From: Streptomyces akebiae
GTDB taxonomy: Bacteria; Actinomycetota; Actinomycetes; Streptomycetales; Streptomycetaceae
Assembly (NCBI RefSeq): GCF_019599145.1
Contig: NZ_CP080648.1
Location: 1 to 64,000 of the forward strand
DNA length: 64,000 bases
Direction of reading: 5' to 3'
Shown here: one piece after another, positions 6,462 to 56,868 of the stretch
How positions within the stretch are numbered: the stretch's first letter is position 1
Layout of the letters: every line of letters starts with the position of its first letter
The notes under the pieces: model-generated
Databases searched by the model: none
The model's input: the letters and a program-made list of their open reading frames with translations, nothing else
What the model was told of the DNA's origin: nothing
Program-made: the position numbers and the translations under genes

Positions 6462-6490
6462 CGAACTATGGGCGCACCTCAGTGAAGTTG

Positions 6491-6847: not shown

Positions 6848-7120
6848 GAGGAGAAGACTATAGAAACCTAGTAGAAGTTAGCTAGCTTTTCTTAAAGACG
6901 GACGCTGCTCGACCAGCTGGGTGCCGCGCGAACCCTACGGAGCGGCGATCAGGTTCAGTGAGACGAGCTCAGGCTCGAGATAGGACAGCAGAGTCAGTAG
7001 CCGAGGACCCGCAGGGATGTCTCGCGTACGCCGGAACTGGCCAAAGGCAACGGGCCAGTGTGAAAGACCTGAGGGAGCAGACGGCCGCTGTGCGGCGGCA
7101 GAACGGCTCGGGGGGAGGAC

Positions 7121-7675: not shown

Positions 7676-7694
7676 CGTGCACGCGGGTTCGAGC

Positions 7695-8804: not shown

Positions 8805-8817
8805 GGTGACGTGGTGG

Positions 8818-9560
8818 TCAGGCGAGGCGGCTGAAGGCCCAGCGCAGCAGCTCCTGATCCACCCGGGGCGGCCGGTGCGGGCCAGGGCAGTGCGGGTGTG
8901 GGCAGTCAACTGGGCCCAGGCGCGGAAATTGCCGTGCGCGGCGTGCTGGTCGGCGAACGTGATGTCATCGGGGTCGGCGTCGACCCAGACCGGATGAAAC
9001 AGCGGGATGGCCTCCAGGACCTCGCTGGGGGTGAGGCGGGTGAAGTGCTGCCAGATGAAGATGCGGGAGGACAGCATCGGTTCACGGCGCAGCACGGTGT
9101 GGCAGCCCTCCCCGCCGACGAAGATGATCGCGAGCTGGGTTGAGGGTTCGTCCCACAGATAGCGGAAGTACTCGAATGCCTCCCCGTTGAGCCACTGGGC
9201 CTCGTCCACGAGGAAGGTGCGGGGACGTTCAGCCAGGGCCGTCTTCAGCAGGCGGTCGAACTCACTGGGATGACGCGGCGGTTCACCGGCCAGGTCGAGC
9301 GCGGTGAACAGCTCGTAGCGCACCGCACGGGCGGTGGGACGGGCCCGGAAAGTGATCTTGCGGACGTCCTCGTGAGGCTCGAGTCCCCGCAGGCAGATGT
9401 TGACGGCGAGGGTCTTGCCGAAGCCGGCGCCGCCGTGGATGCACATCATGGCGCGGGCGGCGACGGTGTCGGAGATGTTCTCCCGGGCGGTGAGCAGGGC
9501 ACGGGTGGTGACCACGGACGCATCGGGCAGGTCGACGTACTGGTAGGTGGCCGCGGTCAC
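8818..9560 (-). pseudogene. TniB/TnsC-type AAA+ ATPase, single-base frameshift near the 3' end
   Basis: Residues 43-50 are Walker A (GGAGFGKT) and residues ~115-121 Walker B (FLVDEAQ), with ELFTALDLAG and HGNFRAWAQLTAHTR typical of the TniB/MuB-like transposition regulators that deliver the transposase to target DNA. The GTG start overlaps the transposase stop. At about 8865 the frame should continue RVDQELLRWAFSRLA and stop at 8818. One C lost from the GCCCCGGG run instead reads through into the next gene and gives a 621-residue fused frame. The length of 743 bases (744 minus 1) fits exactly one missing base. Confidence 0.75.
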
Positions 9561-11249: not shown

Positions 11250-12475
11250 AGCGGCCCCATGAGCCGTGCGCAGGCCCGCTCCAGCATCCGGCGGTCCACT
11301 ACCGCACGGCTCTTGCCGTAGATCTCGGCGGTCAGGTGCGAGGTGAGCTTCGCCCAGGTCCGGAAATTGCCGTGGCCCACATGCTCGTCCACCCACGCGA
11401 CATCGTCCTCGCTCACGTCCTCCCACAGCGGGTGGAAGGCCGCCATCACTGCGGCCACCTCGCCCGGGCGAAGACGAGGCACCAACTCCCAGGTCAGCAC
11501 CCGAGAGGCCAGCGCGGGCACCCGGCGCAGCGCCCGTTCGCTGCCCGCGCCCGCCAGCACGAGTGCCGTGTCCGTGTCCGGGTGGTCCCACAGACCGCGC
11601 AGAAACTCCAGCGCCGGCCCCGGAAGACGCTGTGCCTCGTCCAGCACCAGCACGCGGGGCTGCCGTAGCGCGTTCACCAGCGTCAGGTCGGCCTCCACCG
11701 CCCCGCGCGGCAGCCGCCTGCCCAGCTCGAGGGCGTCCGCGAGCACCCGGCGCAGTTCCGGCACCGTCGGATGCACACCGACATGGACCCGGCGGACCCG
11801 GGCCGGGTGCGGCAGCTGGGACAGGGCGTACTGCAGCGCGACGGTCTTGCCCTGGCCGGCGTCGCCGTACAGACACACCACCGCCCCCACCGCGGCCGCG
11901 TGCGCGACCGTCCGCAGCACCGACCGCACAGCGGACGTGTGCACCACCTGCGCGCCCGGCACCAGGACCGGAACCTGCGCCAGATGCTTCTGCTCCCGCA
12001 GGATCACCTGCCCGCCTGTGCCTTGGCCGGCCACGACGTTCAGGCCGAGCTCGCTGAGCGGATCGGGCCTGCGTGGCCCGGCCACCACGTGCTCCCGCTC
12101 GACCATCAACGCCCGGCCCGCCCGGCGGTCCCTGCGGATTACCCGGTGCAGTGTCGACGCCGACGGAACCGACGCCCCGCCAGCCGCGGCCAGCCGGCGT
12201 CTCAGCTCAGCGACATTCCCTGCCACCTCGCCCAGCAGCGTCCACACCTCGTCCGACACCGCATACCCCTGCCGGACCGGCGCCTCCACCTGCCCGGTCG
12301 TCTTGGCCTGCTCCAGCCAGCGCCACACCGTACGCTCCGAGACACCCACCGTCTCCGCGACCGCACGCACATGCCGCGTGGCCAGTTCCCCCGCCTGCTG
12401 CCGCTCCAGCAGACGACGCACCACCAACCCCCTGGGCAGCACGGGCCCACGACCGGCCCCTACCTCTTGGTCCAC
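11246..12475 (-). CDS. AAA+ transposition ATPase with transposase-like N-terminal HTH
   Basis: A 409-residue protein with two parts. Residues 1-120 mirror the N-terminal DNA-binding region of the neighbouring transposase: ATRHVRAVAETVGVSERTVW, then LLGEVAGNVAELRRRLAAAG, then PSASTLHRVIRRDRR. Residues ~190-409 are a TnsC/TniB-like ATPase with Walker A YGDAGQGKT (around 205), Walker B VLVLDEAQRL, and the same HGNFRTWAKLTSHL tail motif as the second ATPase. A transposase DNA-binding domain joined to the ATPase is not the usual TnsC layout. It may be a true fusion or the scar of a deletion that removed a catalytic core. First gene of the block. Confidence 0.75.
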   Translation of the reverse strand: MDQEVGAGRGPVLPRGLVVRRLLERQQAGELATRHVRAVAETVGVSERTVWRWLEQAKTTGQVEAPVRQGYAVSDEVWTLLGEVAGNVAELRRRLAAAGGASVPSASTLHRVIRRDRRAGRALMVEREHVVAGPRRPDPLSELGLNVVAGQGTGGQVILREQKHLAQVPVLVPGAQVVHTSAVRSVLRTVAHAAAVGAVVCLYGDAGQGKTVALQYALSQLPHPARVRRVHVGVHPTVPELRRVLADALELGRRLPRGAVEADLTLVNALRQPRVLVLDEAQRLPGPALEFLRGLWDHPDTDTALVLAGAGSERALRRVPALASRVLTWELVPRLRPGEVAAVMAAFHPLWEDVSEDDVAWVDEHVGHGNFRTWAKLTSHLTAEIYGKSRAVVDRRMLERACARLMGPL

Positions 12476-12707
12476 CCCACGATCACACCGACCGGGCCAA
12501 CCTCAGCACATAAGAACTATCGAACCTGAGACAACATCAGCTGCCATGCGATAAAGCCCCATGACAGCGATCCCACCCATTAATCTCTCACCTCATGACA
12601 GCGGCCTGCCCACCCGTAAACAGCCGCTGACCAGCCCCGTAACACCCACCCCTGGACCAGCGCGACCGACTCTCACCAACACCGACACCAACCCGAGAGA
12701 TCGCACG

Positions 12708-12860
12708 CGAGGCCACGCTGAAGAGATCGCAGTCGACGGCGAGCCGGAGCCTGTAGTCATCAAGCTGGGCGTATGGGTCTCCAACACCAAGACCCGGCGC
12801 GACAAACTCACGGCCGATCAGCTCGACGCGCTGCGGAAACTGGGCGTGGAGTGGACGTAG
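12708..12860 (+). pseudogene. 3' scrap of a helicase gene (HA-domain tail)
   Basis: The last ~50 codons (GHAEEIAVDGEPEPVVIKLG, VWVSNTKTRRDKLTADQLDA, LRKLGVEWT) nearly match the end of the helicase at 1-1930 (GHSEEIAVAGEAEPVTVKLG through KLGIQWA). Upstream of about 12708 the similarity stops. An open frame from ATG 12561 exists but its N-terminal part is unrelated. A terminator hairpin follows, as expected for the end of a real gene. Confidence 0.75.
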
Positions 12861-31568: not shown

Positions 31569-32831
31569 ATGAGTTCGCCAGCCACCTCCAGCGACCGCGA
31601 GAAGGTCGTCTCCAAACTGCCGGGATGGCTCCGGCAGAACCTCAAGATCAGAGCTGCCCAACACGGCATCGAGATTCAGGCCGCCGTCGAACAGGGCATC
31701 CGCGACTGGTGCAGCCTCGCCTCCGCGACGGCAACCGTCGACACCGCGGGCGCCGACTCCTTCTCCACCTTCCTCCCACCCGGCCAGTGGGAGGAGTTCC
31801 GCCAAGTCGTCACAGACCGCGGTATCTCCCTCATCCAAGGCCTGGCCCAGTCCGTCCAGCTGTGGCTCGACGCCAACCCCGCACCCGACGTCGCACGCCC
31901 CGAGGTCACCCGCCGCATCATCGTGTGCAACCAGAAGGGTGGCGTCGGCAAGACAGCGATCACCGCCGGCCTCGGCGAGGCGCTCGCCGAAGACCCCAAC
32001 GCCCTGCACGCCGTACGCGTCGCCAAGGCACTCGCCAAGGCCCTGCGCGCCAGCGACGCCCACCCCGATGACGCACCCACGAACGACCCACTCGACATCG
32101 AGAACCTGCCAGGCCTCGGCCTGCGCGTCCTACTCGTCGACTTCGACCCTCAGTGCCACCTCACCAACCAACTCGGCGCCACACCGCTGCCGATGAACGG
32201 CGACAGCCTCACCAACCACATGGCCGGAGACCCCAAGGGCGACCTCCGGGACCTCATCGTCTCCATCGGCGACACCCCCTTCGGCGGCCGCCTCCACCTA
32301 CTGCCCGCCTGCAACGACGCCTTCCTCCTCGACGTGCGCCTGTCCGCTGTCCGGGCCCGCGAAGCCGCCCTGGAACGCGCACTCGCCCCGCTCGAAGCCG
32401 ACTACGACGTCATCCTCGTGGACTGCCCACCCAGCCTCGGCCTCAGCATGGACGCCGCCGCCTACTACGGCCGCCGCCGCGACGGCGAAAGGCCAGGACA
32501 GTCCGGCGCCCTGATCGTCGTGCAAGCAGAGGACAGCTCCGCCGACGCCTACGAACTGCTCACCACCCAGATCGACGACCTGCGCGGCGACCTGCAGGTC
32601 GACATCGACTACCTCGGCATCGTCGTCAACCTCTACGACTCCCGCCGCGGGTTCATCGCCACCTCCTCACTGCAGGGGTGGGTCGACATAAAGGATCCAC
32701 GGGTCGTCGGCCTCATCGGCGACCTCAAGGAACAGAAGGAAGCAGTCCGGATGAAGCAACCCCTGCTGTCATACGCCCCCAAGTCACAGCAGGCGATCGG
32801 CATGCGCGCACTGGCCAGGGAGATCGCATGA
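31569..32831 (+). CDS. parA: ParA-family partition ATPase with N-terminal extension
   Basis: 420 residues from ATG 31569 (AAGGTG 7 bases upstream; the frame is open to 31404). Residues 122-129 give the deviant Walker A motif KGGVGKTA, with VLLVDFDPQCHLTNQLGA as A' and ILVDCPPSLGLSMDAAAYYG as Walker B. The ~115-residue N-terminal extension carries two RHH-like stretches (LPGWLRQNLKIRAAQHGIEI and LPPGQWEEFRQVVTDRGISL), consistent with a type Ia ParA that also represses its own promoter. An ATGA overlap couples it to parB. Confidence 0.93.
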   Translation: MSSPATSSDREKVVSKLPGWLRQNLKIRAAQHGIEIQAAVEQGIRDWCSLASATATVDTAGADSFSTFLPPGQWEEFRQVVTDRGISLIQGLAQSVQLWLDANPAPDVARPEVTRRIIVCNQKGGVGKTAITAGLGEALAEDPNALHAVRVAKALAKALRASDAHPDDAPTNDPLDIENLPGLGLRVLLVDFDPQCHLTNQLGATPLPMNGDSLTNHMAGDPKGDLRDLIVSIGDTPFGGRLHLLPACNDAFLLDVRLSAVRAREAALERALAPLEADYDVILVDCPPSLGLSMDAAAYYGRRRDGERPGQSGALIVVQAEDSSADAYELLTTQIDDLRGDLQVDIDYLGIVVNLYDSRRGFIATSSLQGWVDIKDPRVVGLIGDLKEQKEAVRMKQPLLSYAPKSQQAIGMRALAREIA

Positions 32832-33970
32832 GCAAGGCCGACCAGCTCGGCGCCGGCCGATTCGGCGGGGGAGTACGACCCATCAGCGCCCGCCGGCAGG
32901 CAGTCGCCGCCGCCACCGGAGTTCCCACCGACGGAGCCGCCGCCCCCACCGAACTCCCCCCGCACCGCATCAGCCTCAACCCCGACAACCCCCGCTCCAC
33001 TCTCGGCGATCTCACCGACCTCGCAGGCAGCCTGAAGACACACGGCCAAAAGCAGGCGATCACGGTCATGAACCGCGACACCTACATCAAGGCCAACCCC
33101 GAACGCGAAGCCGACCTCGAACCCGACACCACCCACGTCGTCATCGACGGCAGCAGCCGCCTCGCGGCTGCCCGCGAAGCACAACTCACGGCCATCAAGA
33201 TCATGGTCAGCGACGACCAGGGCACCACCTCCGAGGAAATCCTCGAATCCGCCCTCGTCGCCAACATCCACCGCCAAGACCTCGAAGAACTCGACGAAGC
33301 CCGAGCCCTTCAGCGCCTCCTCGCCATCCACGGCAGCCAGACCGCCCTCGCCAAGCGGCTCCACCGCTCCCAGGGCTGGGTCTCACAACGCCTGGCCCTC
33401 CTCAACCTCACCCCTGAACTCCAGACACGCATCGGCACAGAGCCCATCGACCTGCTGCGCGCCGTAGGCAACAAGCCGGCCACGGAGCAGGAAGCCGCAC
33501 TCGCAGAGCTGAAGCAGCAACGGGCCCGCAAGGAGGAGGCCAAGCGAGACCGCTCCAAGAAGCGAGAGCCAGCCGCGAAGCCTGACGCGCACGACACCAA
33601 GACGACCGAGGGCTATTACGGCGTAATAGACGAGCCCGTCGCGAACGGCTCGTCCGCCGGAGTCCAGACCGAACCTTCTGCCGAGGAGTCAGGCAGTAGG
33701 GGAGCTCGCCGTGAGGAGCCCGCGACTGGGCAGGACGCGCAGAGCAACCAGGAGCAGGCGAGCCGGCAGTCCCTCCCGGAACCGCGTCCTCACAATGAGG
33801 CGCCCTCCGGAACTGATCAGACGGCTGGGAGACAGCTGAAGCGATTCCCGTATGACGACGGCCAGTCGGCAGCCCTGTACCTGATCCACAAGATGCCGCC
33901 GAACGAGTTCGACATGATGCTCGACCTTCTCATCAAGCACAGGGACAGCAAGACCCCCACCGCCGGTTGA
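32828..33970 (+). CDS. parB: ParB-family partition protein
   Basis: 380 residues. The N-terminal ParB/Srx domain shows LPPHRISLNPDNPRSTLGDL, a LKTHGQKQAITV strand and VVIDGSSRLAAAREA (the GxxR nucleotide-binding block), followed by the IHRQDLEELDEARALQRLLA helix and the HTH SQTALAKRLHRSQGWVSQRL near residue 173. A long polar linker (residues ~240-330) leads to a short C-terminal domain likely used for dimerisation (QSAALYLIHKMPPNEFDMML). It would bind the 17-mer palindromes. One copy of the palindrome lies in its own coding sequence. Confidence 0.93.
   Translation: MSKADQLGAGRFGGGVRPISARRQAVAAATGVPTDGAAAPTELPPHRISLNPDNPRSTLGDLTDLAGSLKTHGQKQAITVMNRDTYIKANPEREADLEPDTTHVVIDGSSRLAAAREAQLTAIKIMVSDDQGTTSEEILESALVANIHRQDLEELDEARALQRLLAIHGSQTALAKRLHRSQGWVSQRLALLNLTPELQTRIGTEPIDLLRAVGNKPATEQEAALAELKQQRARKEEAKRDRSKKREPAAKPDAHDTKTTEGYYGVIDEPVANGSSAGVQTEPSAEESGSRGARREEPATGQDAQSNQEQASRQSLPEPRPHNEAPSGTDQTAGRQLKRFPYDDGQSAALYLIHKMPPNEFDMMLDLLIKHRDSKTPTAG
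33613..33629. promoter_or_regulatory. parS-like palindrome inside parB
   Basis: Exact copy of CTATTACGGCGTAATAG found upstream of parA, here encoding part of GYYGVIDEP in the ParB linker region. Two rare TAT/TAC codons in the linker are explained better by selection on the DNA site than on the protein. Confidence 0.7.
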
Positions 33971-42721: not shown

Positions 42722-43231
42722 GGGACTGAGACTTCTTTGGTCCCTGTTGTTCAGTCCCTGGAGAAAGCGCAGTTCAGACGGTTACGAGGCCCTAGAAAGG
42801 GACTGAAGGGACTGAATCTCTCTATTATGAGCCATTCCCGCATGCGTGTATGCGCGAGCGCGCGCGTATCTTTCCCCATGTACATAGTTAGCTGATAATT
42901 GCGAGTTTCAGTCCCTTCAGTCCCTTCCGGGAGGCCCACAGCCGTCCTGACCTGCACTTTCTCCAGGGACTGAACAACAGGGACCAAAGGGTCCGGTAAG
43001 TCCCTCCGTCCCTCCGTCCCTTCGTGGGGTGCCCGGCTACTCCCGGACCCTCCCCCGCCCTCGGGTTCAGTCCCTGGCGTGAGTGGGGCATTTTTCCCAT
43101 GGGTTGCGCCTAGGAGTGGCTCAAGGGACTGTAGGGACCGGGCAGCTGATATGCCGCCACGCGGGGGAGCTGCCATCCACCGCCGCGCCTGGGTCCTAGA
43201 CTCTCTTTCGAAACACAGTCCCTCCAGTCCC
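42722..43231. repeat. iteron array, replication module 1
   Basis: At least nine copies of GGGACTG or its complement CAGTCCC. Exact head-to-tail doublets of a 9-mer occur at 42797-42814 (AAGGGACTG twice) and, inverted, at 42909-42926 (CAGTCCCTT twice); another doublet with one variation lies at 43216-43231. Single copies occur at 42722, 42751, 42966, 43067 and 43125. Between the inverted doublets is an AT-richer stretch (TCTCTATTATGAG, GTTAGCTGATAATTG). The layout fits an iteron-type origin bound by an initiator encoded next door. Confidence 0.85.
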
Positions 43232-43310
43232 TTGGGTCTCTCGCTCCAGCACTGCACCAGCTGGCCTGTCAGGGGCCGAGGGACGGGAACCCACGAAGAA
43301 GGACAGACCC

Positions 43311-44393
43311 GTGGCCGGCCGTAGCGTGACGAGAGTGCCAGCAGGCCATGCCATGCCTGCCACACCGCACGCCGTCGCGCGGTGGTGCGCGGAGCAAGGC
43401 TGGCCCGTGCACCCCCTCGCGGCCGGGCGCAAGACGCCTGCGGGCAACTGCGCGGCCTGCAGGGGGCAGAACCACCAGCCAGCAAACTGTGCTTGTCTCC
43501 CCGCAGGCCGTCCGTGCCATGGTTTCCATGCCGCCACGACCGACACCACGCGCATCGACGCCTGGTGGTCCCGTACGCCGTCCTGGGGCGTCGGCGTCGC
43601 CTGTGGGGGAGCGGACCTGATCGTCATCGATGTCGACGCCCACTCCGCGCCGGTCCCCGACCGCGACCGCCTGCTTCCCGGCATCGCCATCCATGACTCC
43701 GTCAATCTGCGGGGGCTGGCCTCAGGCTTCGACACCCTCGCGCTCCTGGCGGCCCTTCGCGGACAGCCCAGCCCCGCCGACGACGACAGCACCCTGCGAG
43801 TGCGGACCCCGTCGGGGGGCCTGCACGTCTGGTATCGCAATCCCCACCCGGCCACCCGGTTCCGTTGCTCGACCGGGTCGAGTTCCAAGGTCGCCCTGGC
43901 CTGGCAGGTCGACGTACGGGCGGACGGCGGCTACATCGTCGCCCCCACCACCCGTACCCCGCAGGGCACGTACGTGCGTGAAGGGGCGACCCGGTTGCCC
44001 GCGCCGCTGCCCGAATGGCTCGGTGAAGAGTTGGTGAGGACCGGCCACGTGATCCAGCCCCCCAAGGTCCGCCCCCGGCCCGCGGTCTCCCGGGCCCGAC
44101 GTTCCCGGGCCGGCGCCCGCGGACAAGGAGTCCTTGACCCCTTGCTCCACGCGGTCGCCGAGTGTGCGGCCACGCGTGAGGGCGCTGCCTTCACCGAGAA
44201 GCTCAACAAGGCCGCCTACACCGCCGGAGGCCTCACGGCAGCCGGACATCTCGATGAGCAGACCGCCCGGTCTCTCCTGCTCCAAGCCGCCGAGGCCGCG
44301 CGGCCCTGGCAGAGCGCCCGCAACGAACGCATCATCAACGACGCCCTTGCCGCCGGGGCAGCCCGCCCGCTTCACCTCGAAGGACGTTCATGA
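43311..44393 (+). CDS. bifunctional primase-polymerase (prim-pol), module 1
   Basis: 360 residues from GTG. The archaeo-eukaryotic-type prim-pol core shows DxD in GADLIVIDVDAHS (~residue 106), TPSGGLHVWYRNPH and VDVRADGGYIVAPTTRT. A cysteine cluster before it (GNCAACRG, CACLPAGRPCHG) is probably a zinc knuckle. The C-terminal ~100 residues are a helical domain (FTEKLNKAAYTAGGLTAAGH). It would start DNA chains at the nearby origin. ATGA overlap with the helicase gene. Confidence 0.88.
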   Translation: MAGRSVTRVPAGHAMPATPHAVARWCAEQGWPVHPLAAGRKTPAGNCAACRGQNHQPANCACLPAGRPCHGFHAATTDTTRIDAWWSRTPSWGVGVACGGADLIVIDVDAHSAPVPDRDRLLPGIAIHDSVNLRGLASGFDTLALLAALRGQPSPADDDSTLRVRTPSGGLHVWYRNPHPATRFRCSTGSSSKVALAWQVDVRADGGYIVAPTTRTPQGTYVREGATRLPAPLPEWLGEELVRTGHVIQPPKVRPRPAVSRARRSRAGARGQGVLDPLLHAVAECAATREGAAFTEKLNKAAYTAGGLTAAGHLDEQTARSLLLQAAEAARPWQSARNERIINDALAAGAARPLHLEGRS

Positions 44394-45919
44394 GCAGCGC
44401 CGGAACCCCGCGCTTCGACGCCAGTGCCGCTGCTCAGCAGATGCTGGACCTCGAGCAGGCGTCCTCCCCGCCCGCAGCCCTGCCCGCCCAGACCAACACC
44501 TCGCAGTCGCCTCCTTCCTGGGCGCAGTCGGCCCCCCTCCCCGGCACACTCACCGACCGGGGCAACGCCAAGCTGTTCGTCAAGCTCTACCGCGACCAGT
44601 TCCGCCACGTCGAAGGCCTGGGCTGGTTCTCCTGGGACGGCTACCGCTGGAAGCGCGGCGGGGGTGAGAAGGCCGCCCTGTGGGCTGCGGGCGAGATGGC
44701 CGAGGACATGCCGGACAGCGACCCGCGCGGGCTGTTCAGCGACCGTGAACTCCACCATCACAAGAAGCGCACCCTGTCCACCACGGGGATGAAGGCACTC
44801 CTCACCCAGGCCAAGGCATCCCCGGACCTGTCCGTCGACCCCGACACCCTTGACGGGGACCCCTACTCGCTGTGCACCCCCGCCGGTGTCGTGGACCTGC
44901 ACACCGGCCTGCTGCGCAAGCCCGACCCCACGCGCGACTTCCACTCCCGCGCCACGAGCGTCGCCCCGCAACAGACCCCCACCCCCCGCTGGCACCGCTT
45001 CCTGCACGACACCTTCGGCGACGACGCCGAAGGCCAGGAGATGATCGGCTTCCTGCACCTGCTGCTCGGCTACTCCATCACCGGCGACGTCGGCGCCCAG
45101 GTGCTGCCCTTCCTGCACGGACACGGCAAGAACGGCAAGAGCGTCCTCCTCGACACCATGATCCAGATCCTGGGCGACTACGCCGACGCGGCTCCGCCCG
45201 GCTTCCTCATGGACCGCGGCTCGTTCTCCGAGCACTCCACCGAACTCACCGAACTCCACGGGCGCCGCCTCATCGTCTGCAGCGAACTCAAGCCCAACGA
45301 CAAGTTCGACGAAGCCCGCGTCCGGCTCCTGACCGGCGGGGACAAGATCAAGGCGCGCCGGATGAGGCAGGACTACTTCTCCTTCACTCCCACGCACCAC
45401 CTCTGGCTCCTCGGCAACCACCGCCCCGAAGTATCCACCGGCGGCTTCGCGTTCTGGCGCCGTATCCGCCTGCTGCCCTTCGAACGCACCGTCCCCGACC
45501 ACCGCAAGATCGACAACCTGGCCTTCGAACTCGTCCGTGACGAGGGCCCCGGCATCCTGCAGTGGCTCATCGAGGGCGCCCGCCGCTACCTGTCCACCCG
45601 TGACAACCTCGAAGGACCCGACCGTGTACGCATCGCCACCACCGCGTACGCCAACACCGAGGACCACATCGGCCGCTTCCTCACCGAATGCTGCACCCGC
45701 GATCTCGAGGCCCACCCCGACCTGCGCGTCGAACAGGGCCTGCTCTACACCGCCTACGCCTCCTGGTGCAGCACCGGCGAAGGCATCCGCCCTGCGGGCA
45801 CCCGCGCCTTCGCCACCCGCGTACGACAGGAAGTCGGCCTCGCCTCACCCTCCGACATGATCAAATCCAACGGCCGCAAGTACTACCCGGGCCTCGCGCT
45901 CCTGGACCATCCCTCATGA
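44390..45919 (+). CDS. P4/D5-type SF3 helicase, module 1
   Basis: 509 residues. An N-terminal D5-N-like domain (LTDRGNAKLFVKLYRDQFRH, YSLCTPAGVVDLHTGLLRKP) precedes the SF3 ATPase: Walker A GHGKNGKSVLLDTM (~243-256), LHGRRLIVCSELKPNDKFDE as Walker B region, LLTGGDKIKARRMRQDYFSF and HHLWLLGNHRPEV (sensor Asn). A C-terminal winged helix follows (VRQEVGLASPSDMIKSNGRK). Unwinds the origin with the prim-pol. Confidence 0.9.
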   Translation: MSSAGTPRFDASAAAQQMLDLEQASSPPAALPAQTNTSQSPPSWAQSAPLPGTLTDRGNAKLFVKLYRDQFRHVEGLGWFSWDGYRWKRGGGEKAALWAAGEMAEDMPDSDPRGLFSDRELHHHKKRTLSTTGMKALLTQAKASPDLSVDPDTLDGDPYSLCTPAGVVDLHTGLLRKPDPTRDFHSRATSVAPQQTPTPRWHRFLHDTFGDDAEGQEMIGFLHLLLGYSITGDVGAQVLPFLHGHGKNGKSVLLDTMIQILGDYADAAPPGFLMDRGSFSEHSTELTELHGRRLIVCSELKPNDKFDEARVRLLTGGDKIKARRMRQDYFSFTPTHHLWLLGNHRPEVSTGGFAFWRRIRLLPFERTVPDHRKIDNLAFELVRDEGPGILQWLIEGARRYLSTRDNLEGPDRVRIATTAYANTEDHIGRFLTECCTRDLEAHPDLRVEQGLLYTAYASWCSTGEGIRPAGTRAFATRVRQEVGLASPSDMIKSNGRKYYPGLALLDHPS

Positions 45920-46121
45920 GCCAACTCCCGCGCCGGACCGGCGAGCTGACCCTCCTCTGCACCGGTCATCAGCACACCCGGCATGACACCCGACGTTCTT
46001 CACCCGCCCGCGCGCGCCGGGCTTACCATGAGACTGCGGGACCGCGTCCGGCAGCGGGCGGCACACCACACGACGAGGCGAACCACCGCCCGGCCCGGCA
46101 GACGAAGGAGGGGCAGCAGCC

Positions 46122-46505
46122 ATGAGCTCGCTACTGACCGAGGGCGATCTCACCCACGAGGAGCACGTCGTGTGGCTGGAAGACCCCGAGAACCTCGACT
46201 ACGTCCGCCAGGCCCTCGACAAGACCCGGCGCCGGAACACCAAACCCCCCTACGCGCGCGACGGCCGCATGGTCGGCTACGCCCTCCTCGACGACCAGGC
46301 GGAACCCGACCCGGACAGCGGCCTGTACAAACGCCGTGTCTTCTTCCTCCTCCCGCACGACCGCGACAGCCTCCCCGGCGGCCTGTACCGCGAGGGCGCT
46401 CCCGGCGAAGCCGTGGACCCGCGCACCATCGACGTGAAGAAGGTCGGAGAGAAGACCCCCCGCTCGCAGAGCGGACCCGGTGCCATAACCGGCCTGCGCT
46501 CCTGA
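46122..46505 (+). CDS. small replication-module protein, module 1
   Basis: 127 residues, similar along its length to the protein at 53472: HEEHVVWLEDPENLDYVRQA, YARDGRMVGYALLDDQAEPD, KRRVFFLLPHDRDSLPGGLY, GEAVDPRTIDVKKVGEKT. It follows the helicase after a 200-bp gap. Conservation of the three-gene set in both modules argues it is part of the replication machinery; function unknown. Confidence 0.75.
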   Translation: MSSLLTEGDLTHEEHVVWLEDPENLDYVRQALDKTRRRNTKPPYARDGRMVGYALLDDQAEPDPDSGLYKRRVFFLLPHDRDSLPGGLYREGAPGEAVDPRTIDVKKVGEKTPRSQSGPGAITGLRS

Positions 46506-46548
46506 CCAGCCGGCCCGGCCAAGACCCGGGCCCCGCCCATTCGTTCGG

Positions 46549-46920
46549 TCAGATCCGCCAGGAACGGATGCGGTCCGCCGCGTCGTATCCGTCGGCGAGG
46601 CCGGCGTCGATGTCGCGGGCCAGGTTGATCAACGCGCCGTACGGCGGGTCGACAGCCTCACCGGCGGCGTCCATGTACGCCGTGACGAGCGCCGCGCCGT
46701 AGAGGGCGTTACGGGCCGGCAGGGGGCGCAGCCGGATGACGGCGTGCATGAGGGCCGCCGCGCGCCAGGCGTTGTCGACAGCGACACCTACCTGGGGCGT
46801 GTTCACCCGGTGGCGTGCGACGGCGGCCACGAGGTTGGAGAAGTCATGGACCGACGGGTGCTTGGGCAGCACGTCCGCCTGCCGCTCCAGCAGCCAGCGG
46901 ATGTCGACGTGGAGCTCCAT
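46549..46920 (-). CDS. Fic-like toxin component of a TA pair
   Basis: 123 residues from ATG 46920, two bases after the antitoxin stop. HVDIRWLLERQADVLPKHPS, SNLVAAVARHRVNTPQVGVA, RLRPLPARNALYGAALVTAY and NLARDIDAGLADGYDAADRI match the small Streptomyces 'Fic-family toxin component' proteins. The Fic/Doc core HPFxxGNKR corresponds to RPLPARNAL here: the Asn is kept but the catalytic His is Arg. It may be inactive as an AMPylase or use other chemistry. Confidence 0.7.
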   Translation of the reverse strand: MELHVDIRWLLERQADVLPKHPSVHDFSNLVAAVARHRVNTPQVGVAVDNAWRAAALMHAVIRLRPLPARNALYGAALVTAYMDAAGEAVDPPYGALINLARDIDAGLADGYDAADRIRSWRI

Positions 46921-46922
46921 GG

Positions 46923-47174
46923 TCAGGCGGCAGCCTGACCGGAGGCGTCCAGCCGCGCGGGGGAGTCCTCCGGGAAGGCCGCGTCGAACGCACCCGCGTT
47001 GTCGGCGACGAACGCGCGGAAGACCTCGGTGGCGCTCTCCAGCCGGGGGTCGCGGAGCGCGTCGCGCGCGGCCTCGGTGATGAGCGCGGTCACCGTGGTG
47101 TCCTCGGCCGCGGCGCGCTCCTGCAACTGGGCGTGAAGTTCCTCGGAGACCCGGATCGTCACTGACTTCGACAT
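46923..47174 (-). CDS. ribbon-helix-helix antitoxin
   Basis: 83 residues from ATG 47174. N-terminal RHH (KSVTIRVSEELHAQLQERAA then EDTTVTALITEAARDAL) binds operator DNA; the acidic C-terminal tail (AFVADNAGAFDAAFPEDSPA) would wrap the toxin. Divergent from tap, so their promoters share 47175-47364. Confidence 0.8.
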   Translation of the reverse strand: MSKSVTIRVSEELHAQLQERAAAEDTTVTALITEAARDALRDPRLESATEVFRAFVADNAGAFDAAFPEDSPARLDASGQAAA

Positions 47175-47309
47175 ACTCCGACCGTACAGCAAGGTGTACA
47201 GCAGGCCCAGCGGTCCGGGGCTCGGGCCATGGTGACGGTGAGGGTCGCGTCTTCCCGGCCGCGGCTTGGGCGGTCACGCGCACCGCAGGTCGTCGTACGC
47301 CATCCGTAC

Positions 47310-47338
47310 GTGATGCGTACGCGAACCGTACGCATCAC
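47310..47338. promoter_or_regulatory. inverted repeat in the tap/antitoxin intergenic region
   Basis: GTGATGCGTACG (47310-47321) and CGTACGCATCAC (47327-47338) form perfect 12-bp arms with a 5-base spacer; further CGTACG motifs lie just upstream (47294, 47306). It is 27 bases before the tap ATG. Either Tap (which has an HTH) or the RHH antitoxin could bind it. Confidence 0.7.
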
Positions 47339-47364
47339 GCTAGAGTCTGAAACAGGAGGTGCAC

Positions 47365-49662
47365 ATGTCCGAGTTGTTCGACCGGGTCGACGCCCTGATC
47401 GCGTCCCGGGCAACGCTACCCCCGCCGTCGGAACGCAAGAGGCTGCGTCAGGCGCACGGTTTCACGCTGGACGAGGTCGCGCAGGCCCTGCAGGTGCGGC
47501 GGGCGACCGTCGGCGGCTGGGAATCGGGCAGGACCGAGCCGCGGCCGCCAGAACGGGACGCGTACGCGCGCCTGCTCGCCAAGCTCGCGGAGCTCTATCC
47601 CGCCGAAGCCGGTGCCGACGTCCGCACCCCCGCCTCCGCCCGCGTGCAGGATGAGGCCACCCCCGAGACGCCGGTGCCTGCCACGGTCACAGCCACGGAG
47701 ACACGGACTCCCTCACCGGAGCCCGCACCGGATCCCTCACCGGAGCACACCTCGCGGGCGACGAGCGAACAGAACACCGGCCACCCTTCCAGGACCGCCT
47801 CGCCGCCCGCCCGCTCACGACCACCCAGCACCACCGAACAGACATCGACGGGCACGGCGGCGGGGACGCCCTCGTCGCGGCGCCCGGCCGTACAAAAGGC
47901 CGCCCCCGCCGGCACCACGGCAGACGGTGACGACTCTCGCTTCGAGAACGGTCCGCTCGCCGTCGTCGACGTCCAGGACGGCCAGGTGTACGCATACTGC
48001 GTCGGCGGACTGGTCCTGGACGTGCCCGCCAAGTCGATCCCGGCCTTGGTCGATTGGACGCTTCGGGAGGCCCGGCTGGGGCAGCCGAAGCTGTCCGGGC
48101 CGGGCAAGGACGCCGACCCGCTGCTGGTGCTGACCGAGGCCGCGCTCAAGCGCTACGGCCTGCCAGTCGCTCTCACCGACGAGGAGCGGCGCGCCGGGCG
48201 GATCCCGGAGAACCACAAGGTCGTCAGGCATTTGGCCCGCTCGGAGTGGAAGCTGACCAAGCGCGGGTTCGGACCGTGGGCGCGGATCTATCGCCCCGCC
48301 CAGGGGGCGGAGCGGGCCTGCGTCCAGCTGTGCATCCCGTCCTGGCACGCCCTCGACTCCCGCCACTGGGGCCAGGCCGCCCAGCTTCCCGCGGCCGCCC
48401 TCGCCCAGGTCCTGGGCCTCTACGCGACCAGGGTGATGACACCGCGCGGCTCCACCGCCGTGACCGGCCTGGAACTCATGACCGCCTTCCACCCACCGAC
48501 CCGGGCCTCCGCGCCGGACAAGGACGGCAAGCGGCACTCCGAGCACAACCCCGGCTCGCTCGGCAGGGACCCGGTGGACTGCGCACCGTGCGAGGCCCCC
48601 GACGGGCACCCCCTGCTGAAGGACCTGCCGCGCTTCCACGTCCGCGGCCCCGGCGAGAAGCTGTTCGAGGAGGCGTGCGACTGGGCGCGTCCGCTCACCG
48701 ACGACGAGTGCATGCGCCGCAACCTCGTCGGCATCGACGTGAACATGGCCTTCGCCGCCGGCGCCAACGGGCTGATCGTCGGACTCGGCGCGCCGACACA
48801 TGTCGAGCGGCCGCGGTTCGACCCGAAACTCCCGGGGAGTTGGCTGGTCGACCTCAGCCACGTCGACCTGTCGCGGGTGAAGGTGGCCAAGGACAAGTGG
48901 GTGGAGCTGGACGGCGACCTGCTGCCGAGCCCGTTCACACCGAAGGGCGAACGCCCCGAGGGCCCTGCCTGGTACGCGACCCCGACCGTGGCATACGCAG
49001 TGGAACTCGGCTACGACGTGCACCCGGTCGAGGCGTGGGTGCGCCCCGACAACGGCCGCTACCTCGACAGCTGGTACCAGCGGCTGCGCGACGCCTACCT
49101 CGCCACGATGGCCGACCTCGGCGTCACCGCGGACCTGGCGCCGGAGGAGTTCCTGACGGCGATGGACGGCTACCGCGACCGTGACCCACAGCTGGCGCTG
49201 GTGGTCTCCGCGGTCAAGGCCACGGTCAAGGGCGGCCTCGGCAAGCTGCGCGAGCGGCCCCGCGGCGAAGGGTGGCGGCCCGGCGAGCCGTGGCGGGCCC
49301 TGTCCCGCCCGACCTGGCGGCCGGACATCCGCGCGGCCGTCATCTCCCGCACCCGGATCAACCTCCACCGCAAGATCGTCAAGCACGCGGCCTTCACCGG
49401 CCAGTACCCGATCGCGGTCCTCTCCGACTGCGTCGTGTACGCCACCGACGGCACATCCCCGCTGGACTTCCTGCCCTACCGGGACGGCAAGCCGCTGCCC
49501 GGCGGCTTCAAGCTCGGAGTGAACCCCGGCCTGGTCAAGTGGGAGGGCACCCAGAGCGTGCTGTGGGGCGAGGGAGTGCGCGAACAGTTCGACGCCCCCG
49601 AACTCAACCTCGCCCGCTACATCAAGGACGGCACCGTCACCGACATCGACAACGGAGAGTAG
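47365..49662 (+). CDS. tap: telomere-associated protein Tap
   Basis: 765 residues; ATG 47365 is chosen because AGGAGGT ends 4 bases before it. N-terminal Xre-type HTH (RLRQAHGFTLDEVAQALQVR then RATVGGWESGRTEPRPPERD, residues ~27-65), a Pro/Thr/Ala-rich linker (~95-185) and the large conserved Tap body including MTPRGSTAVTGLELMTAFHP, VGIDVNMAFAAGANGLIVGL and LPSPFTPKGERPEGPAWYAT. Tap binds the single-stranded telomere end and recruits Tpg. It is followed 12 bp later by tpg, the normal operon. Slightly longer than the S. coelicolor protein. Confidence 0.92.
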   Translation: MSELFDRVDALIASRATLPPPSERKRLRQAHGFTLDEVAQALQVRRATVGGWESGRTEPRPPERDAYARLLAKLAELYPAEAGADVRTPASARVQDEATPETPVPATVTATETRTPSPEPAPDPSPEHTSRATSEQNTGHPSRTASPPARSRPPSTTEQTSTGTAAGTPSSRRPAVQKAAPAGTTADGDDSRFENGPLAVVDVQDGQVYAYCVGGLVLDVPAKSIPALVDWTLREARLGQPKLSGPGKDADPLLVLTEAALKRYGLPVALTDEERRAGRIPENHKVVRHLARSEWKLTKRGFGPWARIYRPAQGAERACVQLCIPSWHALDSRHWGQAAQLPAAALAQVLGLYATRVMTPRGSTAVTGLELMTAFHPPTRASAPDKDGKRHSEHNPGSLGRDPVDCAPCEAPDGHPLLKDLPRFHVRGPGEKLFEEACDWARPLTDDECMRRNLVGIDVNMAFAAGANGLIVGLGAPTHVERPRFDPKLPGSWLVDLSHVDLSRVKVAKDKWVELDGDLLPSPFTPKGERPEGPAWYATPTVAYAVELGYDVHPVEAWVRPDNGRYLDSWYQRLRDAYLATMADLGVTADLAPEEFLTAMDGYRDRDPQLALVVSAVKATVKGGLGKLRERPRGEGWRPGEPWRALSRPTWRPDIRAAVISRTRINLHRKIVKHAAFTGQYPIAVLSDCVVYATDGTSPLDFLPYRDGKPLPGGFKLGVNPGLVKWEGTQSVLWGEGVREQFDAPELNLARYIKDGTVTDIDNGE

Positions 49663-49674
49663 GAGAGGGCGACG

Positions 49675-50232
49675 ATGAGCCTGTTCGGGGACGGCCTGGA
49701 AGCCGCGATGCAGAAGGCGTTCACCCGCCCGGCACCCAAGAGCGCGCCCGCGCAGATGCGGTACCTGGTCAAGCAGCTCAAGGGCACCCGGGCGGTCGCC
49801 CAGCTCCTGCGGGTCTCCCAACGCACCGTCGAACGGTACGTGAAGGACCAGATCAAAAAGCCGCGCCCCGACCTCGCCGCCCGCCTGGAGCGGGAGGTGA
49901 AGAAGCGGTGGCAGCCCCAGGTCCGGGCCAGGGCCCGCCAACGGGCGGCGACCACCGGCGGCATCATCATCGACACCCGCGCCCGTATCGGCTACACCGC
50001 GCCCATCGGTTCCACCGACGAGGACCGGCTCCGTCACCTGACGGTCGCCCTGCCGCCGCAGTACGCGGCCCGCCTCTTCGACGCCCAGGCCGCCGGGGCC
50101 ACCGACCAGCAGCTCAGGGAGATCACCGCCGAAGGGCTCAAGGAGGTGTACTTCCAGGACGGCGGCCGCCGCGCCGGCCAGCTGGAGGAGGTCCGCTTCA
50201 CCGACATCGACCACCTCGACTTCGACCTGTAG
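49675..50232 (+). CDS. tpg: telomere terminal protein Tpg
   Basis: 185 residues, canonical length, from ATG with GGAGAGGG upstream. HTH-like VAQLLRVSQRTVERYVKDQI, the basic WQPQVRARARQRAATTGGII and APIGSTDEDRLRHL. Thr114 lies in the position of the threonine that, as I recall, accepts the first dCMP in Streptomyces Tpg. Becomes covalently linked to the 5' ends and primes the last Okazaki patch. Co-operonic with tap. Confidence 0.94.
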   Translation: MSLFGDGLEAAMQKAFTRPAPKSAPAQMRYLVKQLKGTRAVAQLLRVSQRTVERYVKDQIKKPRPDLAARLEREVKKRWQPQVRARARQRAATTGGIIIDTRARIGYTAPIGSTDEDRLRHLTVALPPQYAARLFDAQAAGATDQQLREITAEGLKEVYFQDGGRRAGQLEEVRFTDIDHLDFDL

Positions 50233-50387
50233 CTCCCCGCGAACAGCGACCCGATCCGGCCAAACGGGACCGCCGACGGTTCCGAATGCCCACCTGGCCA
50301 GGGCGCAGTGCCCGGGGCGGCGATTCCGTGCACCCGCTCCGCGACGCCCTCACTGGCGCTCAGGTCCGGCCAGGAAGGTTCGCTCGA

Positions 50388-50835
50388 GAGTCGCTTGAGC
50401 CGTCGGCGCGCTCAGGTGGTGGGCCGCCACGGATCGCATGACTCCGGCAGCTACTGGAGAACAGCGACAGGACGCGCCGTCGGTAGCTCTTGCCTGTGAC
50501 GTAAAGCAGCAGGTCAGGTCGATATCGAGCACTGATCAGCGACCGAAGCGACCCGAGCTGTGCATATATGGGGAGTGGGACCAGCCCGTATGCGCGTGGG
50601 GGTGACATAGAGGGAACGTGAGTCGCTTCGGTCGCTGATCGGATCCTCTCAAGGCCTGTGACCTGCTTCAACGCAGTGTGGTTGGGGAAGCGACGCAAGC
50701 AACCCCGGTCGCTGGGCCGCCCCTTGAGTCGCTCGCATCCTTGCCGACGTCTTCTGGCTCAGTTCCTACACGTGTCTCCTTCCGTCACCTCCGTTTCGCT
50801 AGTCTGTTCCAGTCGTTCAGTCGCTTGAGTCGCTT
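50388..50835. repeat. iteron array, replication module 2
   Basis: Repeats of AGTCGCTT/AAGCGACT. A head-to-tail 9-mer doublet CAGTCGCTT GAGTCGCTT lies at 50818-50835, just 13 bases before the prim-pol ATG. GATCAGCGACCGAAGCGAC (50534-50552) and its exact inverse (50622-50640) enclose an AT-richer stretch (GTGCATATATGGGG). Further copies are at 50388-50399, near 50690 and near 50726. Same architecture as the array of module 1 with one base changed in the 9-mer. Confidence 0.85.
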
Positions 50836-50848
50836 ATGGGGGATGCGC

Positions 50849-51964
50849 ATGGCTGCTGAGCTGCCTTTTTTATGCAGCGACTCAGGGGGATCGGATGCCC
50901 AGGCATCAGGCGTCCCTCGTTCACTGGTCACCGCTCGATGGTGTGCGGGCCGGGGTTGGCCGGTTCATCCCCTTGCCCCGGGACGCAAGACGCCTGCGGG
51001 CAACTGCGCCCCCTGCCGGGAAGCCGACCACACCCGCGAGGCATGCGGCTGCGCCGCCGCCGGCCGTTGGTGTCACGGATTCCACGCCGCCACGCTGGAC
51101 GCAACCAGGATCGAGCAGTGGTGGGGCGCTCACCCCCGCCTCGGTGTGGGAGTCGCCTGCGCCCCCGCAGGACTGGTGGTCATCGACGTCGACGCCCACG
51201 AGAGGAGGCTGCCCGACCGGAACCGTCTGCTGCCGGGCATCGGCATCCCTGACGGGATCGATCTGACCGGACTTGCCAACGGGTTCCACACGATCGGTCT
51301 GCTGGCTGCCCTGCGGGGCGTCAACAGCCCCGCCGACGACGAGAGGACCCTGCGCGTGCGAACCCCGTCCGGGGGCCTGCATGTCTGGTACCGGGTGTCC
51401 CACCGAGATCGGTGGCAAAGTTCCACAGGGTCGAGCGGTAGCCGAGCGCTGGCCTGGCAGGTCGACGTACGAGCGGGCGGTGGATACATCGTCGCCCCGG
51501 GTACCCGGACCGAGTCCGGGGTGTACGAGCCCCTGGGTGCCGTACGTGAGCCCGCTCCTCTGCCCGACTGGCTCGCCCACGAACTGGCCCGCACAGGCCA
51601 CCTGCCGCCTGCGCACGTGCCCGCGCCCCGGCCTCCGGTGCCACCCCGCGCCCGGCAGGCGGTCATTGCCGCAGGAGGCGGCCGCGGGGCCGTGAGCCGA
51701 GCCCTGGCCACTGTGCTCACAGAAGTGGCCGACTGCGCCGCCGTACCCGAAGGAGCGGCGTTCTCCGAGAAGTTGAACCGCGCCGCCTACACCGCCGGGG
51801 GCTTCGTGGCCGCCGGGCACCTCTTGGAGGAGGAGGCGCAACAGGCCCTGACGAAGGCGGCCGAGCACGCCCGCCCCGGGCAGGAGCGACGCTACGGAGC
51901 CATCATCCGCAGCGGTCTGGGCGCCGGCCGACTGCGTCCGCTGTCCCTGGGAGGCCGGGCATGA
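50849..51964 (+). CDS. bifunctional primase-polymerase (prim-pol), module 2
   Basis: 371 residues from ATG 50849 (GGGGGA 5 bases upstream; ATG 50843 also possible). Paralogue of the module 1 enzyme: PAGLVVIDVDAHERRLPDRN (DxD ~113), RVRTPSGGLHVWYRVSH, VDVRAGGGYIVAPGTRTES, and the same cysteine cluster (GNCAPCREADHTREACGCAA then GRWCHGFHAAT). The start sits right against the iteron doublet, so initiator binding would also repress it. Confidence 0.88.
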   Translation: MAAELPFLCSDSGGSDAQASGVPRSLVTARWCAGRGWPVHPLAPGRKTPAGNCAPCREADHTREACGCAAAGRWCHGFHAATLDATRIEQWWGAHPRLGVGVACAPAGLVVIDVDAHERRLPDRNRLLPGIGIPDGIDLTGLANGFHTIGLLAALRGVNSPADDERTLRVRTPSGGLHVWYRVSHRDRWQSSTGSSGSRALAWQVDVRAGGGYIVAPGTRTESGVYEPLGAVREPAPLPDWLAHELARTGHLPPAHVPAPRPPVPPRARQAVIAAGGGRGAVSRALATVLTEVADCAAVPEGAAFSEKLNRAAYTAGGFVAAGHLLEEEAQQALTKAAEHARPGQERRYGAIIRSGLGAGRLRPLSLGGRA

Positions 51965-53475
51965 CCTCCCAACACGACGGCACCCTCTTCGACGCCCAGG
52001 CGGTCGCCCTGCAGATCCTCGCGCAGCCCACTGTGCCGGGGCCCCGGCGGGTGGGTGGGGACGTCCCCGCCGCACGGGGGGATGGGGAGGCGACCGCCGA
52101 CGGCCTGCTGCCCGACACGCTCAGCGACCGCGGCAACGCCAAACTGTTCGTCAAGCTGTACTCCGACGACTACCGGCATGTTCCCGGCCTCGGCTGGTTC
52201 CGCTGGGACAGCACCCGCTGGCAGGTCGACGAGGACGACACCGTGATGTGGGCCGCCGGAGATCTCGCGGAGTCCCTCGCGAGTACCGACCCGCGCGGTG
52301 TGTTCACCCCCGCCGCCCTGCAGCAGCACCGCCGCCGCGCGCTCAGCACCAGTGGCATGAACGCGATGCTCACCCAGGCCAGATCCGCTCCGGGCATGGT
52401 GCTCAACGCGGCCCGGCTGGACGCCGACCCGTACGCGCTGTGCACCCCGGCCGGCATCGTCGACCTGCGCACCGGACTGATCCGTACGCCGGACCCGAAC
52501 AAGGACTTCCACTCCCGCTCCACCACCGCAGCCCCGCAGCCGATGCCCACCCCGCGCTGGGACCGTTTCCTCATCGACACCTTCGGTGACGGGCCCGAAG
52601 GCGCGGAGATGATCGACTTTCTCCATCTGCTGCTGGGCTACTCCATCACCGGGGACGTCGGCGGGCAGGTCATGCCGTTCCTGTTCGGCTCCGGCCGCAA
52701 CGGCAAGTCGGTGCTGCTGGACGTGCTGATGAAACTCGTCGGTGACTACGCCGACGCCGCTCCGCCAGGTTTCCTGATGGCCCGCCCGTACGAAGGTCAC
52801 CCCACCGACCTGGCCGAACTGCACGGCCGCCGCGTCATCGTCTGCAGCGAGGTCAAGCCGGGCGACCGGTTCGACGAGGCCAGGGTCAAGCTGCTGACCG
52901 GCGGCGACCGCATCAAGGCCCGGCGCATGCGTCAGGACTTCTTCAGTTTCGAACCCACCCACAAGCTGTGGCTGTTGGGCAATCACCGGCCCGAAGTAGG
53001 CGCCGGCGGGTTCGCGTTCTGGCGGCGCATGCGCCTGATCCCGTTCGAGCGCGTCGTCCCCGACGACCGCAAGATCGACAATCTCGCGGACGTCCTCGTC
53101 ACCGAAGAGGGTCCCGGCATCCTCAACTGGCTGATCCTGGGCGCCCGCCGCTACCTCAGCGGCGAGAAGGACCTCACCGGGCCCGAACGTGTCCGGATCG
53201 CCACCACGGCGTACGCGGAGACCGAGGACCACACCGGGCGTTTCCTCGGCGAGTCCTGCCGACTGGACCCGGACCTCAGGACGGAACAAGCGCACCTCTA
53301 CGCGGCCTACAAGGTGTGGTGCCAGAATGAGGGGGCCCCGGCGGTCTCGTCCCGGGCCTTCGCCGCGCGGGTCCGAGAAGTGGTGGGACTGGCGTCGCCC
53401 AAGGAGATGATCCTGTCCAACCAGCGGAAGTACTACCCGGGCATCGGACTGGTCGCCGACGAGGAGGCAGTATGA
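51961..53475 (+). CDS. P4/D5-type SF3 helicase, module 2
   Basis: 504 residues, start overlapping the prim-pol stop. Closely parallel to the module 1 helicase: LSDRGNAKLFVKLYSDDYRH, Walker A GSGRNGKSVLLDVL, GRRVIVCSEVKPGDRFDEAR, LLTGGDRIKARRMRQDFFSF, KLWLLGNHRPEVGAGGFAFW and the winged-helix end VREVVGLASPKEMILSNQRK. Domain order and length are the same; the N-terminal ~45 residues are unrelated and low-complexity in both. Confidence 0.9.
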   Translation: MTSQHDGTLFDAQAVALQILAQPTVPGPRRVGGDVPAARGDGEATADGLLPDTLSDRGNAKLFVKLYSDDYRHVPGLGWFRWDSTRWQVDEDDTVMWAAGDLAESLASTDPRGVFTPAALQQHRRRALSTSGMNAMLTQARSAPGMVLNAARLDADPYALCTPAGIVDLRTGLIRTPDPNKDFHSRSTTAAPQPMPTPRWDRFLIDTFGDGPEGAEMIDFLHLLLGYSITGDVGGQVMPFLFGSGRNGKSVLLDVLMKLVGDYADAAPPGFLMARPYEGHPTDLAELHGRRVIVCSEVKPGDRFDEARVKLLTGGDRIKARRMRQDFFSFEPTHKLWLLGNHRPEVGAGGFAFWRRMRLIPFERVVPDDRKIDNLADVLVTEEGPGILNWLILGARRYLSGEKDLTGPERVRIATTAYAETEDHTGRFLGESCRLDPDLRTEQAHLYAAYKVWCQNEGAPAVSSRAFAARVREVVGLASPKEMILSNQRKYYPGIGLVADEEAV

Positions 53476-53873
53476 GTGCCCTCATCGCAGAGGACGAGAT
53501 CGTCCACGAGGCCGACTTCGTCTGGCTCGAGGACATTGACGGACTCGACTACGTACGCCAGAGCCTCGACCGGCTGCCGACCCGGCGGGGCAAGCCCGCC
53601 TATCACAGGGACGGCCGGATGGTCGGCTACGCGCTGCTGGCTCCCGACGCCAAGCCGTCGCGCTCCTCGGGTACGTTCCGCCGCCGGGTCTTCTGGTTGC
53701 TGCCGCACGACCGGGACACCGACCCCGAGGGCCTGTACGCGACCGGGGCACCCGCGGAGGCCGTGGACCCACGCACGCTGGCTCCCGGCATCAAGGGGCG
53801 CAAGACGGAGCGGTCCGAGGGCGGGCCGCCGTCGACGGCGATGCGGGAGCTGGGCATTACGCTGCCCCTGTGA
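53472..53873 (+). CDS. small replication-module protein, module 2
   Basis: 133 residues, ATGA overlap with the helicase. Paralogue of the protein at 46122: HEADFVWLEDIDGLDYVRQS, YHRDGRMVGYALLAPDAKPS, RRRVFWLLPHDRDTDPEGLY, AEAVDPRTLAPGIKGRKTER. Here it is directly coupled to the helicase, unlike module 1, which has gained 200 bp. After it, 53874-54143 shows no gene. Confidence 0.75.
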   Translation: MSALIAEDEIVHEADFVWLEDIDGLDYVRQSLDRLPTRRGKPAYHRDGRMVGYALLAPDAKPSRSSGTFRRRVFWLLPHDRDTDPEGLYATGAPAEAVDPRTLAPGIKGRKTERSEGGPPSTAMRELGITLPL

Positions 53874-56785: not shown

Positions 56786-56868
56786 TCGCTCTCGGTCGCT
56801 GAACAGAGCCCCAGGTCAGGTCAGGACTTCGCGCAAGCGCACGGTGCGGAAAGCGACTGAAGCGACTC
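56786..56868. repeat. iteron-like copies between receptor and afsA
   Basis: AAGCGACTG AAGCGACTC (56851-56868) is exactly the inverse of the module 2 iteron doublet at 50818-50835. GGTCGCT/GTCGCTG copies lie at 56785-56801. They sit 6 kb from the module 2 array, beyond its last gene. Confidence 0.7.

Follow-up and report, generated by a model that had tools for sequence, protein, structure and literature searches.

The window analysed here, i.e. the first 64 kb of the 292,176-bp contig NZ_CP080648.1 of Streptomyces akebiae, carries two replication modules in tandem, each provided with its own array of 9-bp iterons, and the iterons of the two modules differ at one base. This one-base difference is real and systematic in the modules compared across relatives, where it is tied to the lineage of the helicase encoded alongside. 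Taken as a whole, these features are probably best explained by a tandem of two replicons, both complete and of the SCP1/pSLA2-L kind, that represent two old specificity types, whose iterons would be read by the helicases and whose separation would depend on one base. In the mechanism proposed, each helicase would bind its own iterons via a C-terminal winged-helix domain resembling that of RFX proteins, two helicase rings would be loaded face to face at the inverted doublets flanking an AT-richer core, which would melt, and a primase-polymerase (prim-pol) would prime; forks would run out to the two telomeres, and Tap and Tpg would complete the ends there. One iteron base, putatively matched by helicase residues 485-491, would separate the types so that two replicons may share a cell or a molecule. 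Gene order, array anatomy, the match of clade and iteron type, iterons at some modules devoid of prim-pol, the fold match of a predicted model and co-residence counts are read from the sequences, and the mechanism extends them to presumed binding, melting, ring loading, priming, compatibility and firing of both origins.

Both modules present the order that the initial annotation had claimed for them, namely iterons, prim-pol, SF3 helicase and a small protein, the latter being a DUF6009 protein. In module 1, the iteron region and probable origin ori1, of CAGTCCCTT type (42722-43233), is followed on the + strand by a prim-pol (43311-44393), the SF3/P4-family (D5_N) helicase HEL1 (44390-45919) and a DUF6009 protein (46122-46505). 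In module 2, the iteron region and probable origin ori2, of SAGTCGCTT/RGTCGCT type (50388-50835), is followed, again on the + strand, by a prim-pol (about 50843-51964; the listed open reading frame begins at 50678 and the in-frame ATG at 50843 or 50849 was chosen as start), the SF3/P4-family (D5_N) helicase HEL2 (51961-53475) and a DUF6009 protein (53472-53873). The prim-pols belong to PF09250 and both helicases exceed the cut-off of the P4-family model TIGR01613 (257.2 and 279.3 bits vs. 108.7). Families of primases, polymerases and helicases from PHROGs, together with one of unknown function, match the prim-pols and helicases, and no PHROGs match was obtained for the DUF6009 proteins. A PDB profile search with the helicase returned C962R, SaPI5 and, weakly, poxvirus D5/E5, and the predicted model of the prim-pol matches pRN1 ORF904. 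Alignment of the two modules confirmed that the initiators have diverged, with identities of 60% for the prim-pols, 63% for the helicases and 59% for the DUF6009 proteins.

The iterons themselves are CAGTCCCTT at module 1 and SAGTCGCTT at module 2, which bears out the one-base difference first reported. Each occurs six times in the window, against 0.30 and 1.00 expected, respectively. As for whether iterons are scattered away from replication genes, those of module 1 are all local, since 6/6 CAGTCCCTT on the whole contig fall at 42797-43233; of the seven SAGTCGCTT on the contig, four lie at module 2 and three elsewhere, i.e. two at 56851-56868 and one at 151224. The 17-bp pattern AGTCSCTTSAGTCSCTT is found four times in the 10.5-Mb genome: module 1 has two copies in inverted orientation, module 2 has one, and the last lies at 56851. 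Direct repeats of regular 9-bp period beside an initiator gene, as expected from an iteron plasmid, are present. At module 1, a left inverted doublet (42797-42814, - strand, period 9) and a right doublet (42909-42926, + strand) enclose an AT-richer core (42815-42908, 94 bp, 52% AT, the window having 31%). At module 2, an inverted RGTCGCT doublet as left arm (50534-50552, - strand) and an RGTCGCT doublet as right arm (50622-50640, + strand) enclose a core of 67 bp and 39% AT (50554-50620); these arms are 100% complementary and half of their sites are the variant GGTCGCT. The exact doublet CAGTCGCTTGAGTCGCTT (50818-50835, + strand) lies directly ahead of the probable prim-pol start. The description of exact and inverted doublets around an AT-richer core, given at first for both modules, stands for module 1 but has to be relaxed for module 2, with its single exact doublet, variant sites and core of only 39% AT.

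The survey of relatives relied on two same-genus searches with overlapping draws, which found the helicase in 77 of 295 genomes (E up to 1e-80, at most five scored candidates per genome) and in 96 of 392 genomes (E up to 1e-100, at most three), so that some copies may be missed with such limits. The first search provided 119 places, after exclusion of both places in the window itself and of four rows with low scores, from which 100 surrounding stretches were taken; 29 stretches from genomes new in the second search and six from named plasmids were added (loci are numbered with L, genomes with G). Typing was anchored on the helicase and distinguished iterons C (RGTCCCT), CG (RGTCCCG), cC (RGCCCCT) and G (RGTCGCT), module 1 of the window being of type C and module 2 of type G. 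Among 154 helicases, 124 could be typed by iterons, L098 being excluded from them because its upstream stretch was wrongly cut at a contig end; modules of the HEL1 clade were C (52), CG (11) or cC (1), those of the HEL2 clade were all G (60), and with zero mismatches between clade and type in these typed modules the claim that the base change accompanies diverged initiators is supported. Upstream of HEL1-like vs. HEL2-like helicases in the 99 modules that have a prim-pol (126 helicases in all), 635 vs. 13 RGTCCCT sites were counted (coding controls 8 and 17) and 10 vs. 735 RGTCGCT sites (coding controls 22 and 16), totals that include 2 + 2 sites from the wrongly cut upstream stretch of L069.

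The anatomy recurs as well. The layout of minus doublet, core and plus doublet appears in 111 of the 124 typed modules, where strand shuffling gives 16.3, and the most frequent spacing between same-strand iterons is 9 bp (481). In 110 of the 111 modules with this layout the core is richer in AT than the region (median 0.49 vs. 0.35), the AT-richest core having been used where several fitted. Core lengths in typed modules group near 61, 71 and 93-96 bp with a best period of about 11.3 bp, perhaps through helical phasing or descent.

Whether the base does anything more than record descent has to be asked, and a mere ancestry marker, with proteins that do not discriminate between the sequences, appears unlikely. 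Helicase and prim-pol trees split the same groups, albeit with weaker support for the prim-pol (0.89 and 0.68), and C and G each form one clade in both, which leaves few independent switches; many helicase differences also lie outside the C-terminal domain. Yet, the sites of the other type are nearly absent at each origin, same-type pairs of modules with prim-pol are avoided, and in midpoint-rooted trees CG sits within the clade that bears C, a node supported at 0.97 for the helicase and weakly for the prim-pol, with changes at residues 486, 488 and 491. From the sequences compared, the best-supported reading is that the one-base difference would act as a recognition code and as a compatibility rule. 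Such a code was not found in the literature searched, which included few subscription papers and in which the 1999 SCP1 and 2003 pSLA2-L papers figure only as references.

Regarding the protein that would read the iterons, the helicase is the likelier one because some modules without neighbouring prim-pol retain type-matched iterons. Helicases without prim-pol within 500 bp number 34, of which 11 were typed. CG arrays stand directly upstream of such helicases at L051, L100, L124, L127 and L128 (L129 being an identical copy), a G array directly upstream of the one at L053, and at L052 the type-G helicase is adjoined by G sites, with C sites farther up beside a type-C prim-pol. In at least L124, L128 and L099, the upstream open reading frame ends in an apparent C-terminal remnant of a prim-pol. 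The converse arrangement, in which the prim-pol or the DUF6009 protein reads the iterons and recruits the helicase, is quite improbable: the prim-pol does adjoin the array, also splits by type and shows 16 type-diagnostic columns (65 for the helicase), but arrays of the right type beside some helicases devoid of neighbouring prim-pol, even with a prim-pol possibly encoded elsewhere in the genome, disfavour it as reader. By analogy, the iterons of pWTY27 were footprinted by RepA, RepB being a predicted primase/polymerase (PMC3583192, in excerpt), which also points away from the prim-pol. Six HEL2-like helicases (L062, L079, L083, L085, L087 and L089) have neither prim-pol nor clear array of their own.

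Within the helicase, the sequence comparisons make the C-terminal domain the likelier candidate. At residues 485, 488 and 491 (HEL2 numbering), C modules have K/R, G and Y/F in 52/52 cases, CG modules K, A/D/V and L in 11/11, and G modules L/T/V, Q/S and Y/H/F in 59/60, the odd one belonging to G370, whose second helicase aligns over 377 residues only and is counted among the 22 co-residence pairs mentioned below. In the window, HEL1 has K, G and Y at these positions and HEL2 has L485, Q488 and Y491. Columns that distinguish CG from C are enriched in residues 440-497 (7/18, p 0.003). The predicted fold of residues 421-500 of the helicase model best matches the DNA-binding domains of RFX5 and RFX1, hence the RFX-like domain assigned to HEL2 at 420-500, and DSSP assigns residues 480-487 of this model to a helix and 491-497 to a strand. 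In RFX proteins, wing W1 contacts the major groove (PMC2533330, in excerpt), and by our reading of the aligned ranges residues 485-491 of the modelled helicase would correspond to W1. At the sequence level, PF02257 (RFX) matches 10 of 42 members at E up to 0.01, the best with 19.2 bits against a cut-off of 27, and the C-terminal fragment of the helicase gave no match to PDB sequences.

Co-residence provides a view of compatibility. Among typed modules with prim-pol (103 modules from 82 survey genomes), 0/22 same-genome pairs are of the same type where 9.8 would be expected, and none of 50,000 shuffles was as low, although tandem pairs share descent and such permutation p-values overstate independence; 16/22 pairs lie on one contig. 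The named plasmids, chosen for several listed helicase places or for their literature, combine up to three types: G, C and CG in NBC_01178, along with a 384-residue fragment without array, G, C and CG in NBC_00663, C (by 5 sites) and CG in NBC_00008, and CG and G in pSGRIFU1, where no more than 4 G sites belong to the G helicase itself. In these four, residues 485-491 are readable in 9/10 helicases and agree with the array. Besides, S. europaeiscabiei combines C and G. AMCC400023, NBC_00490, NBC_01483 and NBC_01450 matched both helicase queries and are for that reason uninformative on exclusion.

A number of observations weigh against an iteron code read by the helicase wing and enforced as compatibility. 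Untyped helicases amount to 30/154 (21 HEL2 and 9 HEL1), four of which (L090, L092, L094 and L095) are instead followed by 5 to 18 G sites lying downstream of DUF6009, and 23/34 of the helicases without neighbouring prim-pol are without typeable array. The residues of the cC module (n=1) are those of C, the columns that distinguish C from G show no clear concentration in residues 440-497 (9/46, p 0.08), and types coincide with few clades, so that links between residue and type may reflect shared ancestry. The helicase model is poor overall (predicted local distance difference test, pLDDT, 52.9) and good only near 41-150 and 421-500, and the fold match has a Z just above 8, modest by the tool's own note. 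When all typed modules are considered, 4/36 same-genome pairs are of the same type (14.7 expected), three of them involving a module without prim-pol and one consisting of identical copies in G179. S. coeruleorubidus NZ_CP137525.1 carries C, G and G on one molecule, both G modules with prim-pol, and in pSGRIFU1 (L214, upstream of 7164) the CG array ahead of the CG helicase is adjoined by a G array. A strict exclusion of same-type modules is weakened by these 4/36 pairs and by S. coeruleorubidus, a genuine exception albeit within a single molecule. In its full form, the proposal of a one-base code read by an RFX-like wing of the helicase that would divide giant Streptomyces linear plasmids into three or more compatibility types (C, G, CG and perhaps cC), molecules gathering two or three types as independent initiators, is held tentatively, at a little short of an even chance. 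As a side observation, the module duplicated in G179 (L128 and L129) lies on both the largest contig (8.5 Mb) and a 245-kb contig.

Even with such a code, with which it is compatible, it is conceivable that replication is driven by one module only, the second being a passenger that linkage or the intervening tap-tpg genes retain, a scenario of appreciable though lesser probability. Some relatives (e.g. L185) have just one module in this stretch, and additional helicases devoid of prim-pol are present on many plasmids, but both modules read intact here and both are accompanied by prim-pol in several relatives.

Turning to the history of the two tandem replicons, the modules are about 85-155 bp apart in L041, L148, L150, L151 and L184 vs. 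about 3.85 kb here, where tap (47359-49662, + strand) and tpg, encoding the terminal protein (49675-50232, + strand), both over their family cut-off, come in between. The stretch holding them (46512-50356, borders vs. L150) has no counterpart in these five relatives with adjacent modules, and with five relatives vs. one the simpler reading is that tap-tpg was inserted here rather than lost there. Own-type helicases on other plasmids are up to 96% (HEL1) and 93% (HEL2) identical, vs. 63% between neighbours. The window's HEL1 groups with L148/L041 and its HEL2 with L150/L151/L184; the module pair is therefore older than this plasmid, yet has recombined. That two plasmids recently formed a cointegrate, or that this one recently underwent a duplication, is very improbable: both modules are complete and self-contained, but the tandem recurs in the five relatives, each helicase is closer to its own type elsewhere than to its neighbour, and detailed differences between the HEL1 and HEL2 trees show that some exchange occurred. 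Of the two origins first suggested, duplication within this plasmid is disfavoured by the closer own-type helicases and the tandem in relatives, and a cointegrate subsequently inherited as a unit appears from these comparisons to fit better.

In S. rochei, the tap-tpg pair is carried by plasmids and is absent from the chromosome (PMC6662830, in excerpt). Here, no other match in the genome, which consists of two contigs, exceeds the family cut-off for tap; 11 other matches are partial, including one chromosomal with an internal TAG and one at a plasmid end with an internal TGA. Matches to tpg recur at the two ends of the plasmid and at those of the chromosome. Since the only tap over cut-off lies on this plasmid, the chromosome may depend on it for its ends.

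Among known systems, P4 alpha binds its origin via a C-terminal winged helix, and ORF904 of pRN1 joins prim-pol and helicase in one protein. Unlike in P4-family primase-helicases (TIGR01613) and SaPI5, the prim-pol is here a separate gene and the C-terminal domain matches RFX best; likewise, two genes stand here in place of the single ORF904 of the archaeal plasmid. The likeness to the RFX DNA-binding domain lies in the predicted fold of residues 420-500, which belong here to a plasmid helicase rather than to a eukaryotic transcription factor. From the literature and pSGRIFU1, the replicon is of a known kind, that of SCP1 and pSLA2-L. The usual central replicon is described as a helicase and its iteron, with 'SCP1-like' replicons on large plasmids (PMC13152386, in excerpt). 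Common to that kind and to the present replicon are a large linear plasmid, a P4-family primase/helicase gene with iterons, and, in relatives, parAB and butyrolactone genes nearby; unlike there, two complete modules of different iteron type are found here in tandem with tap-tpg between. pSGRIFU1, called very similar to pSLA2-L (PMC8443760, in excerpt), has CG and G helicases and only a 42-residue prim-pol match in the examined stretch. The Streptomyces plasmid pWTY27 (repA, repB and iterons), compared by description, is alike in its predicted primase/polymerase gene and in a further Rep protein, 522 aa long, whose binding site is an inverted iteron region spanning about 105 bp (PMC3583192, in excerpt), but it is a 14-kb plasmid with other repeats. 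SCP1 also possesses a dual ParABS (PMC13245405, in excerpt), i.e. two related maintenance systems on one plasmid, for partition and not replication.

Roughly one in four of the genomes searched in the same genus has a helicase of this family, and some of these plasmids, such as pSGRIFU1 and NBC_01178, carry antibiotic clusters. A base-to-residue code, if true, would permit typing plasmids and predicting their coexistence, and would help to study how related origins avoid cross-talk.

As for the replicon as a molecule, the contig ends in a 19.1-kb terminal inverted repeat of 99.96% identity, the outermost bases being perhaps absent from the contig, and it is therefore a linear plasmid. Over its first 12.7 kb, the chromosome contig matches both plasmid ends at 99.9% (window 33-12710; L213 1-12679). 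A ParB-like match is split over two adjoining pieces at window 32828-33952 (86% and 62%), and in L148 parAB lies directly upstream of module 1. Beyond the range first annotated, an extra G-type doublet (56851-56868, - strand) stands between scbR-like and scbA-like genes; L058 likewise has a G-type doublet between such genes at position 2552, and 43/131 loci hold such a gene.

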